Positions 15,704 through 20,479 of a stretch of 23,615 nt of DNA are shown here, one piece after another. The number at the start of each line of letters is the position of its first letter. The first letter of the stretch is position 1. Both the position numbers and the translations under genes were made by a program. Source of the DNA: a virus; IMG/VR virus record IMGVR_UViG_3300010413_000173, positions 1 to 23,615 of that record; one strand, written 5' to 3'. The notes beneath the pieces are model-generated. The model was not told the DNA's origin. It saw only the letters and a list, made by a program, of their open reading frames with translations, and searched no databases.

Positions 15704-18370
15704 CTACCAAAGAAGCTCGACGGAACGCCCCACAAGCTCCTCCACCGGAAATCTATAAACTACGTAGTACCCCAATGCGTCAGATAAATGTGACAGCATT
15801 GGATCGGACTTCTTGTCAATGTCCCCCCCTCCACCTTCCACAAGTCGTGTCCCTTCAAGGTCTCTAGCTGTGTGAGGAGCCTTATCTTTATCAATAAGCA
15901 TGTGAACGATGCCCGCCGCCGAGAGTAACCGCGAGTTTAGGGCATTAACTCTTACACGTTCACGCGGGTTAGCTGGCGGAATAAAGTAATGCACACGTCT
16001 CCACTTATTCCTAAAAACCTTCTTAACAATATCCCAGTCGGAACCCTCGACTTTAGCCGAACCACCAGCGCCACCTGTAGCATCACCATAAACATGCACA
16101 TCGCCTTGGTGACTGCCCCAGTCAGTTAGGATTGCTTCGCAAACAGCTACAGTATTGCTGTTTCTGGGGATGAAGACTTCTCCGATAACACCTGTGCCAA
16201 TTACCGGGTTATAATAGGTTTCATTGCGTCTTTCATCATAAACAGGCTCTTTTACGCCCGGTAACTGCTGTTCTTGGCAAATAACGGCCACTCCAGGGGA
16301 AATATTGAAGTCAAAACACAAAACTAGGGGCTGAGTTGGGTCGTACTGGAGAGGTCGGCAGTGAACATCCATGTCAAAAGGATAATACACACGCCCTTGG
16401 AAGTAGATGAACGAGTTAAAATTATCTATACCTTCCGACAGAAGATAACTATGGTCTTGGCTGTCGACTTCTATGTTCCAGCATTCCTCTTGAGGACCAA
16501 ACGTCTGGCCTACCACTTTGAGACGCAACTTACCGTCTACAAAATGAGTAGACATCCACTGATTAAAGTCTGGGAAGTTGTTTGGAGTTCTGTTCTGCTT
16601 GTCCTGTGTAACAAGACTTTTTATTACCTGTTGGTTCGTGGACAAAAGTTCACCTATTTTGTTCCAACGTAGGCCCAGTTCATACAGAGAACGGGCCTTT
16701 CTCTTTCTATACCCAGAAGCAAACATATACTTCTGCCACAACCAAGCCAACTCCTGCTTCTTAGGAGAGTATAAAAAGCCTACAGTCGATAGGAACTCTC
16801 GTGAATTCACATAGAGCACTGAGACATGCTGATGTGGTCTAACCGTATTTCCAACCCCAAGCTCTGTCAGCAACTCTCCGCACTCTTCAACAAGACGTCT
16901 AGATGCCATACTCAAAGTAACTTCTGGGCTCTTTTTGCCTCTTGGAGAATGTCCGTCGGCCCCAAAAATAGCAGCCAAAAACCATTTTTTTACAGACAAC
17001 GAGCCGTGTTTAATCCAACTCGGGACGCCTAGAGGAGAACTAGGCTTGTGTCCAACAATACAGCCTGCCTTTACAAGCTGTCTGGCATATTGCCCCCCGA
17101 CTTGGAGTTGCCAAAAGCCATCACTCTTTTCTGTTACATTGCAGTTTGCCTCTATGCCAGCCAAAAGCAAATCTCTTTTAATCTCTTCGAGGGCAGTCTT
17201 GTCAGACGAGTAAAAAGCTACCCCGTACGACGGACCGTTTCTGGTTTGGCCTGTTTCACACACGGTTCCGTCTCCTAAGTTGAATCCAACAACACTCGCC
17301 AAAGCTTCAGCTTGCGTCCTAGGTCTGTCGTGGATAGGAACAAACTCAATGAATGTACAGTCCTCTAGCGGTACTACTTCATCAGCTAACCGCATTTTGT
17401 GCTGAGTTGAGGCTACAAAAGTACTTCCGTCCTCCAACTCCACTGTTAGCATGTATTTTTTCCCAGTCGGCCCTACTTGGAGTACTGTTGTCTCAGTAAC
17501 AACACCGTTCTGTAACGACAAAAGCTTATCGCCCACAGTCAAGCTAGAAATAGCCTTGTTTGTGCCGTCAGCAAGTCTGACCAACGTATCCGGACGATGG
17601 CAACCTTCATATTCTTGCTTGAACGTCAAGTCGTCAAGCGTGTTGCGGGCGCTTTCAACCTCCCGCGGGTCAAGAATCTCCGCACTCTTCCAATGAAACA
17701 TGTCCCACTCGGGGGTAATCCCGTCGTACATTGCCTCTTCCGAAATACGCTTCGCGTCTTCGGCTAACTCCCAATAATGGTTCCGGCCTTCTGGCACGCC
17801 GATGAAATCGCACCAACCCGCACGGTCAGAAAGAGCAGGACGCACATGTTCAGGCCAAGTTCTAGCTCTCATATTGCCGTACTCATCCAAAACGCACCCG
17901 TCCCACGGCGTACCCTCCACACGTTCGGGCTTGTCCATGCCAATTACCCATATTTCTGCCCCAGACTTGAGACGTATACACATTTCTGTCTCACTTACAC
18001 CGCGACGCGGGTCTGGGTCGTAAGCCCAGTCGGGCACGAGCCGTTTGATGTCCTGCCAAAAAATACGTTTAGCCTGCGACCAAACAGGCGCACCCACAAA
18101 ATAACGTGGATAAGGGTCTTTGGAGGGTAGGGGAAGGCCGTGAATAGTGCTGTACGGGTCAAGCGCCCGTAGAACAATTTTACGTTTAGCAAGCTCAGTT
18201 TTACCCGACCTGCGCCCTGAAGGGACAACCTTAAAACGCGCCGGAGAGGACCAATACCGATGTTGTTCGGCATGAGGGCGCATTTGTGTCCACCGAGGCG
18301 TTAAATAGCTCTCTTTTGGGGGCCGACCGCCCTTGTTTCGCAATGTACTGGGTGTTTCGCGCGATGGCAC
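15704..18370 (-). CDS. terL: Large terminase subunit, interrupted by an in-frame intein
   Basis: 888 residues from a GTG start. N-extein, residues 1-256: Walker A SGRRSGKTE (51-59), motif GTPWDGCVLDEYGNM with the Walker B pair D162/E163, and NTLDDLTFKQEYEG at the end of the ATPase domain. C-extein, residues 653-888: nuclease motifs LCFDFN, VYGDATGG and HLSDALGYYV, the three acidic sites of the RNase H-like packaging nuclease. Joining EYEG to SFIYFQGRVYYPFD restores an uninterrupted TerL of 492 residues, so the product is presumably active after splicing. It cuts and pumps phage DNA into proheads with TerS. The methyltransferase gene lies between the two terminase genes, which is uncommon but known. 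Confidence 0.93.
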   Translation of the reverse strand: MPSRETPSTLRNKGGRPPKESYLTPRWTQMRPHAEQHRYWSSPARFKVVPSGRRSGKTELAKRKIVLRALDPYSTIHGLPLPSKDPYPRYFVGAPVWSQAKRIFWQDIKRLVPDWAYDPDPRRGVSETEMCIRLKSGAEIWVIGMDKPERVEGTPWDGCVLDEYGNMRARTWPEHVRPALSDRAGWCDFIGVPEGRNHYWELAEDAKRISEEAMYDGITPEWDMFHWKSAEILDPREVESARNTLDDLTFKQEYEGCHRPDTLVRLADGTNKAISSLTVGDKLLSLQNGVVTETTVLQVGPTGKKYMLTVELEDGSTFVASTQHKMRLADEVVPLEDCTFIEFVPIHDRPRTQAEALASVVGFNLGDGTVCETGQTRNGPSYGVAFYSSDKTALEEIKRDLLLAGIEANCNVTEKSDGFWQLQVGGQYARQLVKAGCIVGHKPSSPLGVPSWIKHGSLSVKKWFLAAIFGADGHSPRGKKSPEVTLSMASRRLVEECGELLTELGVGNTVRPHQHVSVLYVNSREFLSTVGFLYSPKKQELAWLWQKYMFASGYRKRKARSLYELGLRWNKIGELLSTNQQVIKSLVTQDKQNRTPNNFPDFNQWMSTHFVDGKLRLKVVGQTFGPQEECWNIEVDSQDHSYLLSEGIDNFNSFIYFQGRVYYPFDMDVHCRPLQYDPTQPLVLCFDFNISPGVAVICQEQQLPGVKEPVYDERRNETYYNPVIGTGVIGEVFIPRNSNTVAVCEAILTDWGSHQGDVHVYGDATGGAGGSAKVEGSDWDIVKKVFRNKWRRVHYFIPPANPRERVRVNALNSRLLSAAGIVHMLIDKDKAPHTARDLEGTRLVEGGGGDIDKKSDPMLSHLSDALGYYVVYRFPVEELVGRSVELLW
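16415..17602 (-). mobile_element. Intein with LAGLIDADG homing endonuclease in terL
   Basis: Residues 257-652 of TerL (396 aa). Block A starts CHRPDTLVRLADGT; block B is GSTFVASTQHKMRL with the STQH variant of TxxH; block F is CWNIEVDSQDHSYLL; block G ends GIDNFN followed by Ser +1 of the C-extein. Two LAGLIDADG-type helices are visible: SVVGFNLGDGTV (D367) and FLAAIFGADGHS (D472), so the endonuclease looks intact. The penultimate residue is Phe rather than the usual His, which may slow Asn cyclisation or be offset by block F. The insertion point is the ATPase-nuclease junction. Confidence 0.92.
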
Positions 18371-18382
18371 AGCCTAAAAACC

Positions 18383-18568
18383 TCAAAAATCAGTGCGAAA
18401 TCGGCCAGTTATCGTCTGAATCGTGTAGCGTAACTCGCCGTTATCATTAAAGATAACCATCATTTGATTCGTCTTCAATTCCAAGAGTTTTTCCAAGACG
18501 TCATCTGCGTCATCAAAGTCTACAGGTTTGTCCGCCAAACGTTGTGTTAAGTCAATAATTTTGGTCAT
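18383..18568 (-). CDS. Hypothetical protein, 61 aa
   Basis: The ATG at 18568 overlaps the methyltransferase stop (ATGA), a standard coupling arrangement; a further ATG at 18580 is possible. The product (MTKIIDLTQRLADKPVDFDD, then a Leu/Lys helix and LRYTIQTITGRF) is small, acidic at the centre and unlike any family I know. It lies 12 bases before the terL start. Confidence 0.6.
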   Translation of the reverse strand: MTKIIDLTQRLADKPVDFDDADDVLEKLLELKTNQMMVIFNDNGELRYTIQTITGRFRTDF

Positions 18569-19494
18569 AATTCCATACATGCCTGTATAAACTTCGCCGC
18601 TACTTGCGGGACGACCGCATTGCCGTAGGCGCGCAGGCGTCCCACTCGGGCGGGAATCCTATTAGCCAACGGGAAAAGGCTGGGTTCAACTGGCCTCCAC
18701 TTTCCGTCTCGACAGGGCAACCATTCGACGTTGGCCCAGAAACCTTCCAAACTTCCCTGCCTAACAGGGAGTTTGTCGGTACATTGGGGCAAAACGGCCC
18801 GTCTTTGTGGTCTCTCTGTGTCGGAGTGGGCCAACTCGCCAGCAGTACTTGATCCCTCAACTTGATTTTCGGGGATAACTTCTCTACTTTCGCCCGTATG
18901 ACATCCATACAGCCGCCTACCCCGTCCGACCCCGAGGGAGTCCTCCACCCGACCAGCATCGCACAATCGTTCAGGTCGTTCGAGCGTTTCGGATGGGTGA
19001 ATCTGTGACCCTGCCCCCACTTCCAGTCTCGACCTTGGGGAGTAGGCCACGAACCACAATCTTTGTCTGATATGCGGCGCACCGACGCCCGCTGCTGGCA
19101 AATCAGCCGCCCCGACCGCATAACCTTCTGCTTCCAAGTCAGTTTGAACAAGGTCGAGCCAGAGGTAGCCAGCTTTTGACGCAACTTGCTCTCCAAAGAT
19201 GACTGGAGGCTGGAGCGACTGTACAAGATGAAACCAGGCGGGCCACAGGTGCCGCTCATCAGTAAACCCTTCTCTTTTGCCTGCTGAGGAGAAAGGTTGG
19301 CAAGGACATGAACCTGTCCAGACGGGTCGATGGCTAGGCCAGCCTGCGAGCTGTAGTGCGTAAGCCCACCCTCCGACTCCCGCAAAAAAATGGAGTTGCG
19401 CATAACCTTTGAGTTCGGACGGTCGAATCTCCCGCATATCTCTGTCATCCACGTCCCCTTTCGGTAAAACGCCTGCGTCTATCAAGTTTCTCAA
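18565..19494 (-). CDS. dcm: C5-cytosine DNA methyltransferase
   Basis: 309 residues from the given TTG. Motif I is LHFFAGVGGWAYALQLAGW, motif IV GSCPCQPFSSAGKREGF with the catalytic Cys, motif VI appears as FGEQVAS (Gln for the usual Asn), motif VIII IRQRLWFVAYS, and motif X YGNAVVPQVAAKFIQA. The target sequence is unknown. Upstream in frame the codons continue YYSENDTFCVRWLRNLI, which matches the usual N-terminus of phage enzymes of this type, back to an ATA at 19534-19536 overlapping the terS stop; the true start may be that non-canonical codon, with AGGGA upstream. The enzyme may protect phage DNA from host restriction. A second gene is encoded in another frame inside it. Confidence 0.92.
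   Translation of the reverse strand: MRNLIDAGVLPKGDVDDRDMREIRPSELKGYAQLHFFAGVGGWAYALQLAGWPSHRPVWTGSCPCQPFSSAGKREGFTDERHLWPAWFHLVQSLQPPVIFGEQVASKAGYLWLDLVQTDLEAEGYAVGAADLPAAGVGAPHIRQRLWFVAYSPRSRLEVGAGSQIHPSETLERPERLCDAGRVEDSLGVGRGRRLYGCHTGESREVIPENQVEGSSTAGELAHSDTERPQRRAVLPQCTDKLPVRQGSLEGFWANVEWLPCRDGKWRPVEPSLFPLANRIPARVGRLRAYGNAVVPQVAAKFIQACMEL
18600..19448 (-). CDS. Overprinted gene inside the C5 methyltransferase, 282 aa
   Basis: A 282-codon open frame on the same strand, shifted relative to the methyltransferase and almost wholly inside it. The product has segments I recognise from many phage and prophage hypothetical proteins encoded with Dcm genes: LSPQQAKEKGLLMSGTCGP, LQSSLESKLRQKLATSGSTL, FKLTWKQKV with SGRLICQQRAS, PTPTQRDHKDG, and the ending LNPAFSRWLIGFPPEWDACA. 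Recurrence of these motifs argues for a genuine overlapping gene, not a chance frame. Function is unknown; an accessory of the methyltransferase is a fair guess. The start is uncertain (ATG at 19448 or 19403, neither with a strong ribosome site). Confidence 0.65.
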   Translation of the reverse strand: MTEICGRFDRPNSKVMRNSIFLRESEGGLTHYSSQAGLAIDPSGQVHVLANLSPQQAKEKGLLMSGTCGPPGFILYSRSSLQSSLESKLRQKLATSGSTLFKLTWKQKVMRSGRLICQQRASVRRISDKDCGSWPTPQGRDWKWGQGHRFTHPKRSNDLNDCAMLVGWRTPSGSDGVGGCMDVIRAKVEKLSPKIKLRDQVLLASWPTPTQRDHKDGPFCPNVPTNSLLGREVWKVSGPTSNGCPVETESGGQLNPAFSRWLIGFPPEWDACAPTAMRSSRK

Positions 19495-19532: not shown

Positions 19533-20111
19533 CTATTTATCTGTCCCTGTTTTTTGTGGTACAGCAGGCAGTGTCTCCACCATATATTTAGCTGTTGTCT
19601 GTAAACGCTTAGCGATATCTTCGGTCGATTCGTCTTGTGTACCAAACTTCCTCATCCCAGAACCTAACCCGTTTCCAGAACCTTCCTTCCAACCGGCATG
19701 CACAGTCAACCAGAACTTAGTCATAGAGGGATGCTGGCCGCTCAACGCCATCTGAGTAGCGACAGCAATGACATCACGTGTGAGTAGCGCTTTACCGTTA
19801 TCAAGCTCATCACGGAAATAACGTCTCAACGTACTAGTAGAAATCGGACCGAGCGGATGTATCGCACGAGCTATTTCGTCTTGTTTCATACCGGCGGCAG
19901 CCATGACCCGCACAGCATAACGCTCTTCAGAGGTGGGTTCCCACCCCCTCACCTGCGCCAACGTCAACTTCTTAGGTCTGTCTGTCGCTTTATAATCAAA
20001 AGTAGCACGGCGCTTCTTACCCAGACTCTCACGTGCCTTCTTCACACTTGTCTTTTTAGGCTTCTGTAACTGTATAACACGACCCGGAGTACACGTCGTA
20101 GAACTGGCCAT
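19533..20111 (-). CDS. terS: Small terminase subunit
   Basis: 192 residues from the ATG at 20111, preceded by GAGGTGAACTCT, which favours it over a GTG at 20120. After a basic disordered N-terminus comes a helix-turn-helix region (SEERYAVRVMAAAGMKQDEI, then GPISTSTLRRYFRDELDNGK) and a segment typical of phage small terminases (VATQMALSGQHPSMTKFWL, then HAGWKEG). TerS binds the packaging site and hands DNA to TerL. It is the first gene of the left-going operon, 0.1 kb from a duplicated promoter module. Confidence 0.85.
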   Translation of the reverse strand: MASSTTCTPGRVIQLQKPKKTSVKKARESLGKKRRATFDYKATDRPKKLTLAQVRGWEPTSEERYAVRVMAAAGMKQDEIARAIHPLGPISTSTLRRYFRDELDNGKALLTRDVIAVATQMALSGQHPSMTKFWLTVHAGWKEGSGNGLGSGMRKFGTQDESTEDIAKRLQTTAKYMVETLPAVPQKTGTDK

Positions 20112-20208: not shown

Positions 20209-20237
20209 ATTATAGCAAAACTTGTCCGGATTGGCTG
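20209..20237 (-). promoter_or_regulatory. Proximal late promoter candidate upstream of terS
   Basis: Minus strand: extended -10 TGCTATAAT (20209-20217), with CAGCCAATCCGGAC (20224-20237) ending 9 bases upstream of the hexamer. The usual TTGACA is absent, so the conserved CAGCCAA-CCGGAC block may be a phage-specific -35 or an activator site. Transcription would run leftward through terS, dcm, terL and the head genes. Confidence 0.7.
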
Positions 20238-20279
20238 CTGTACTTAGGAACGTTGTTACTACAAATTTCAACTAACATG

Positions 20280-20308
20280 TATATACGTAAAAAAGTCCGG
20301 TTTGGCTG
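20280..20308 (-). promoter_or_regulatory. Distal late promoter candidate, copy 2 of the module
   Basis: Minus strand: TATATA (20280-20285) and CAGCCAAACCGGAC (20295-20308), exactly 71 bases from the proximal pair and at the same internal spacing. The -10 is weaker than in copy 1, so it may be secondary. Confidence 0.55.
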
Positions 20309-20310
20309 TG

Positions 20311-20460
20311 GGACGTAGTGGTACGTAGGGTGTGGTGGGTTGTGGTTAGTTGTACGTAGTTGGTTGGTTGTACGTAGCATATTATACCTAGAGCGTGGTT
20401 GGTTGTACGTAGTTGGTCGTACGTGGTTGGTTGGTTGTACGTAGTTATGACAGGTACCCC
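20311..20460. repeat. GT-rich tract with six iterated GTACGTRG boxes
   Basis: GTACGTAG occurs at 20321, 20352, 20370, 20405 and 20437, and GTACGTGG at 20419, embedded in GGTTGGTTG repeats. The plus strand is almost devoid of C outside the boxes. TACGTA is self-complementary, so each box is a potential dimer site. The tract lies immediately upstream of the duplicated late promoters and contains one further TATAAT on the minus strand (20381-20386). It could be an activator array, an origin or a packaging site. No gene is supported here. Confidence 0.75.
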
Positions 20461-20479
20461 ACGCATGGCCGGGGCCGGG

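Follow-up and report, generated by a model that had tools for sequence, protein, structure and literature searches.

Can a phage gene for a C5-cytosine DNA methyltransferase encode a second, selected protein in another reading frame, and what would that protein do? The question is raised by a locus in a 23,615-base IMG/VR virus record, a phage contig whose whole length is referred to here as the window, and for which the initial annotation, made from the sequence alone, had proposed a gene overprinted on the methyltransferase. Both ORFs are present where it placed them, on the same strand and offset by +1, together with all the motifs that it quoted. Each codon of the second ORF (beta) is made of positions 2 and 3 of one codon of the methyltransferase (alpha) and position 1 of the next. 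The features of the locus are the following:

18565..19494, minus strand: alpha, C5-cytosine DNA methyltransferase (Dcm-type); PHROG 363; motifs I, IV, VI, VIII and X, without motif IX
18600..19448, minus strand: beta, second protein of 282 aa in the +1 frame, with its ATG at 19448 and fully within alpha; PHROG 1008
19454..19461, minus strand: Shine-Dalgarno-like site AAAGGGGA, 5 bases 5' of the beta ATG and inside alpha codons; the sequence preceding the ATG is AAAGGGGACGTGG
19288..19305, minus strand: alpha motif IV, PCQPFS, with the catalytic Cys (sequence motif)
19083..19217, minus strand: beta residues 78-122 (SLESKLRQKL...STLFKLTWKQKVMRSGRLICQQRAS), a conserved helix and beta hairpin; best-modelled part (block pLDDT up to 86-90)
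18789..19049, minus strand: beta residues 134-220, variable, with WPTP/WRTP repeats; overlies the alpha variable region
18639..18692, minus strand: beta residues 253-270, QLNPAFSRWLIGFPPEWD, a segment resembling motif IX, where the codons of the gene are most strongly constrained
18604..18627, minus strand: alpha motif X, YGNAVVPQ, on the DNA directly downstream of the candidate motif IX of beta, in the other frame

Genes neighboring the alpha/beta locus include those for the terminase large subunit and the portal, and no partner endonuclease was seen at the phage locus. Alpha is listed from the TTG at 19494, and alignment places the homologous N-terminus about 14 codons farther upstream. Homologues begin MxxYYNE..., and the matching upstream part of alpha in the window, IVYYSENDTFCVRW, opens with ATA straight after an in-frame TAA (19534-19536, minus strand), with ATG, GTG and TTG absent before 19494. 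Two starts are conceivable for alpha in the window: an AUA that shares bases with the TAG of the preceding gene in the form ATAG, or the TTG, which would give a shortened protein.

Two other features of the window were recorded. The terminase large subunit gene (15704-18370, minus strand) is split by an intein, with PHROG 2 and PHROG 10250 matching the terminase halves on either side. The intein has a Hint-like start near residue 252 (PF01079, under its cut-off), and residues 460-524 form a LAGLIDADG endonuclease domain (PF14528, 2.7e-13). At 20210-20466 (minus strand), the ORF translations are repetitive (TTNQLRTTNHNPP..., NQPTTYDQLRTTNH...), which suggests that a short DNA sequence is repeated in tandem between genes.

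The second frame is open and conserved beyond expectation

The openness of the second frame was compared with that in sequences whose synonymous codons had been shuffled within each methyltransferase, a procedure that preserves its protein and its codon usage. The longest +1 ORF of the window spans 292 codons against a shuffle mean of 140, a length reached in 0 of 200 shuffles, whereas the +2 frame is unremarkable (43 codons vs 69 in the shuffles). The initial annotation had named frequent second-frame stops among close homologues as the mark of a spurious gene, and the opposite was found: across 102 unique homologues there were 292 stops in the +1 frame against 541 expected, mostly outside the second ORF, and no depletion was detected in the same homologues in the +2 frame (1464 vs 1318 expected) or in the three antisense frames (531/531, 758/689 and 973/934). 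Among 73 diverged homologues, mean identity in the +1 frame was 0.377 compared to 0.239 after shuffling; the +2 frame also rose (0.341 vs 0.240), which shows that such values are lifted by nucleotide conservation alone, so that the more telling test is how the signal runs along the gene.

Codon constraint follows the boundaries of beta

Codon identity among pairs sharing the same residue was related to its expectation in 73 alphas less than 70% identical (set 1) and in an independent set of 83 diverged Bacillota-type alphas (set 2). The regions of alpha outside beta served as the control, the portal gene as an external control having only 5 relatives. The constraint at synonymous sites that the initial annotation had suggested looking for in methyltransferase alignments is evident in both sets, with values close to neutral outside beta. 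For set 1, codon identity was 1.00-1.04x expectation in alpha codons 1-20, about 1.7-2.95x over the conserved parts of beta and 0.97x past its end; for set 2, it was 1.00-1.08x before beta, up to 2.87x inside it and 1.03x after, with zero +1 stops across ~160 columns.

Single codons illustrate the same pattern. V284 of alpha is written as GTG in 67 of 68 sequences (15 expected), which gives W in beta in 72/73, and A277 is GCT in 60/60 (13 expected). At codon 183 beta keeps W in 66/71 over an alpha L found in 36/71, and at codon 281 it keeps P in 72/73 over an alpha P found in 37/73. In the variable region, the beta residues (W, T, P) are better conserved than the alpha residues that they overlap.

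Beta has start signals of its own

An ATG with a strong Shine-Dalgarno (SD) sequence in the right place was present in 26 of the 73 genes of set 1, compared to 3.5 expected and a maximum of 9 in 300 shuffles. In the Bacillota-type set, a start with a strong SD was present in 40/83 (6.5 expected; maximum of 14 in 200 shuffles). R18 written as AGG together with D22 written as GAT, the combination that builds both SD and ATG, occurs in 20 set-1 genes. Both frames are under selection, and that the second one is a conserved protein maintained by dual coding, and not a chance ORF, we regard as practically certain. Stop depletion, synonymous-codon constraint and the excess of start signals thus bear out the overprinting by a real protein that had been proposed.

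Alpha lacks motif IX and beta carries a motif-IX-like segment

Alpha matches PF00145 (E 2e-16) and PHROG 363 "DNA methyltransferase" (3e-70), and the core motifs of a C5 methyltransferase are aligned in it (FAGVGG, PCQPFS, GEQV, HIRQR and YGNAVVPQ). It is not a complete single chain, as motif IX is missing between the variable region and motif X: 0 of 73 alphas match a motif-IX-like pattern, and the motif is absent from the alignment too.

Beta matches PHROG 1008 (8.2e-34), with residues 17-277 covering positions 15-286 of the 329 of the profile. Sequence searches with beta in Pfam, NCBIfam and PDB returned nothing meaningful, and its model, whose confidence (mean pLDDT 57) is too low for a verdict on the fold, had no Foldseek match in the PDB under E 0.001. 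The C-terminus of beta, LNPxFxxWLMGFPxxW, lies behind the variable WPTP repeats and is motif-IX-like (LNPAFSRWLIGFPPEW in beta); it has the same spacing as motif IX of M.HhaI, which we take to be LTPRECARVMGYPDSY. Position and pattern suggest that this segment is motif IX. The initial annotation had called the second product uncharacterised, which holds only in part, given its match to PHROG 1008 and its layout as a small motif-IX subunit.

Fused and split relatives in actinophages

Divergent C5 methyltransferases (L382-L386) were tried as negative controls and rejected, as two of them had unusually long +1 ORFs and several had PTP and WLMGFP words; that they were not clean negatives led to the link with actinophages. 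Mycobacteriophages encode single-chain methyltransferases (IrishSherpFalk 71, Papez 46) and, in IrishSherpFalk and many more loci, LPTP repeats, a motif-IX-like segment and GNGVVPQQA stand in frame with the catalytic core. In natural split forms (Gordonia phage Camerico gp38/gp39, Streptomyces phage Samy 49/50, and loci L423, L426 and L427), these three elements sit in a +1 ORF.

The C-terminal half of beta is homologous to the C-terminal half of the single-chain enzymes: fused residues 192-358 align with beta 128-279 (hhalign, probability 94%, E 9e-8), in an alignment that rests on low-complexity repeats and one short motif, and with Bacillota-type beta the repeat part alone was aligned. In profile comparison, alpha aligns with the fused enzymes over motifs I-VIII only. 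The model of a fused enzyme matches M.HhaI over its full length (Z 23.5, rmsd 3.6, 239 residues), with a well-ordered C-terminal segment and a repeat region that is not. HMM alignments of fused enzymes to HhaI end at or before motif VIII, and CheeseTouch, another in-frame form, matches PF00145 up to profile position 316 of 324.

In the fused mycobacteriophage genes (L402-L431), where the C-terminal part has moved into frame 0, the +1 frame has nevertheless stayed open across motifs VI-VIII (YSETWPxSGMTRNGRLFPLPTS), and its codons there are constrained at 2.2-2.7x vs a background of 1.2-1.5x.

Distribution of the overlapping pair

Both frames were found at all 359 relative loci (119 and 160 from IMG/VR and 80 from GTDB), in the +1 register wherever this was tested; the total is not a census, because the sets are ranked best matches and some contigs recur between them. 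The GTDB loci belong mostly to Bacillota, and also to Coriobacteriia, Acidobacteria, Chlorobiota, Bacteroidota and several proteobacterial classes. No stand-alone beta gene was found among the 160 IMG/VR and 80 GTDB loci listed with beta queries. Phages with both frames include N15, epsilon15, K1G, RcRios, Leyra and Lacticaseibacillus R23.9 among others, with an early stop and an internal start in the second frame of N15. The double use of one gene is kept in viruses and in bacteria of several phyla, and the second protein is absent from most annotations. The initial annotation had called such persistent dual coding rare; within this gene family, overlap is the rule, at every locus examined. 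It had also placed proteins with the motifs of beta on or beside Dcm genes, of which only the first applies, since all the relatives found overlap a C5 methyltransferase.

Some loci deviate from the common form. Komagataeibacter phage phiKX1 (L120, 2398-4044) has an unannotated methyltransferase frame of 549 codons in which the C-terminal region (motif X and the tail of the second frame) is apparently duplicated, and Salmonella phage SAP012 (L129, 1853-2672) has a short variant of the overlapping pair where no gene is annotated. Only broken pieces, of both frames, are left in Pseudomonas phage PACT201 (L131), where decay seems to have struck both frames together. Two candidate leads were discarded: the "Mte8-like protein" of K1 phages carried no functional information, and a match in a K. 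aerogenes plasmid, considered as possible EaeI, turned out to be a phage-like fragment. No account of such breadth was found in a literature search limited to open-licence papers; the arrangement itself is of a known kind, and what seems to be new is how widespread it is and how strong a codon signature it leaves.

A probable heterodimeric methyltransferase as the best explanation

M.EcoHK31I, a C5 methyltransferase, consists of two polypeptides: motifs I-VIII and X reside in the large one together with the predicted target-recognition domain (TRD), and the small one has motif IX only (PMC3404938). As its division of motifs is the one found here, an alpha/beta heterodimer is the most likely reading, and from the sequences we consider it probable that the locus encodes a heterodimeric C5-cytosine DNA methyltransferase with beta overprinted on alpha. 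Frame 0 would provide alpha, with the AdoMet-binding and catalytic core (motifs I, IV, VI, VIII and X), and the +1 frame would be translated into beta from its own SD and ATG within alpha codons. Beta would contribute the motif IX that alpha lacks; the target-recognition region, too, would probably come from it in part or in whole (the variable WPTP-repeat segment), and by analogy with M.EcoHK31I both chains may assemble into the active enzyme. Encoded on the same bases, alpha and beta would be kept together and co-produced, and the enzyme, beside packaging genes, most likely protects phage DNA from host restriction by modifying it. A bolder proposal, which we advance tentatively and at somewhat less than even chances, is that the real TRD lies in the overprinted frame instead of in the annotated methyltransferase frame, with the WPTP-repeat region picking the sequence to be methylated; the variable region is included in the profile match of beta, but M.EcoHK31I has its predicted TRD in the large subunit (PMC3404938).

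Beta could instead be a real protein with an accessory role (DNA-binding, anti-restriction or regulation of the methyltransferase), overprinted and travelling with the enzyme. It is strongly basic (median pI 9.8), is mostly modelled as disordered and has a conserved N-terminal module of its own (helix and hairpin), for which we know of no counterpart in HhaI-type or other monomeric C5 methyltransferases. Such a role is nevertheless unlikely, as beta was never apart from a C5 methyltransferase in the 359 loci (ranked best matches, some recurring) and bears the motif-IX-like segment missing from alpha, a segment that in actinophages belongs to the methyltransferase chain. Far less probable is that programmed frameshifting joins the N-terminal part of alpha to the C-terminal part of beta, the second frame not being translated alone: the excess of beta's own SD and start is great, the codon constraint starts near the beta start and not at a shift site, and the joined product would be without motif X in most dual-frame members, even if actinophage relatives have exactly such a joined product in one frame and the +1 frame over motifs VI-VIII is open and codon-constrained even in fused genes. 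That the second frame is a by-product of conserved methyltransferase residues and codon bias, a gene-caller artefact turned database family, is hardly credible. The strongest motifs of beta do lie over conserved alpha motifs, +1 frames are often open in GC-rich genes and in many records only one of the pair is annotated, but the synonymous shuffles reject it, codon conservation ends at the boundaries of beta, beta residues are conserved where alpha residues vary (codons 183 and 281) and the signal is also present in sequences of ~53% GC (the Bacillota-type set).

If beta does carry the TRD, a large multi-phylum family of "solitary" C5 methyltransferases of phages and bacteria has been annotated without the polypeptide that gives specificity and activity, and few of the gene-in-gene overlaps conserved in prokaryotes would be as widespread or as long. 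If the reading is true, many annotated stand-alone Dcm enzymes of phages and bacteria would be inactive when cloned alone, recoded or codon-optimised, because the second frame would be destroyed; gene callers that forbid nested genes would drop an essential subunit, and methylation specificity predicted from alpha alone would be unreliable. The family samples a long dual-coding gene in great depth, and the natural occurrence of one enzyme in fused, split and overlapping form allows the study of how overprinting arises and resolves.

Comparison with known systems

The label of PHROG 1008, the family to which beta belongs by profile match, is silent on motif IX, on the missing catalytic core and on the constant overlap. 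The single-chain and split enzymes of mycobacteriophages resemble the present pair in that beta-type LPTP repeats and a WMMGxP segment make up their C-terminal half; in contrast, their beta-type sequence either shares the frame of the core or forms a separate downstream ORF that also bears motif X.

M.AquI is a split C5 methyltransferase whose two polypeptides form one enzyme (PMC3404938). Its small subunit has motifs IX and X and half of the variable region, whereas the phage pair keeps motif X on alpha, inside which beta is almost completely contained.

M.EcoHK31I recognises YGGCCR according to Lee, Kam and Shaw 1995, as cited in PMC3404938. It is part of an E. coli restriction-modification system, whereas the locus described here is a phage locus adjoining terminase and portal genes. 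Compared by description, the two share a large subunit with motifs I-VIII and X that lacks motif IX and a second polypeptide with motif IX, or here with the segment assigned to it. The beta subunit of M.EcoHK31I is nested in the alpha gene in an alternate frame, just as the small subunit is coded inside the gene of the large one here, and it is 176 aa long vs the 282 aa of the phage protein.
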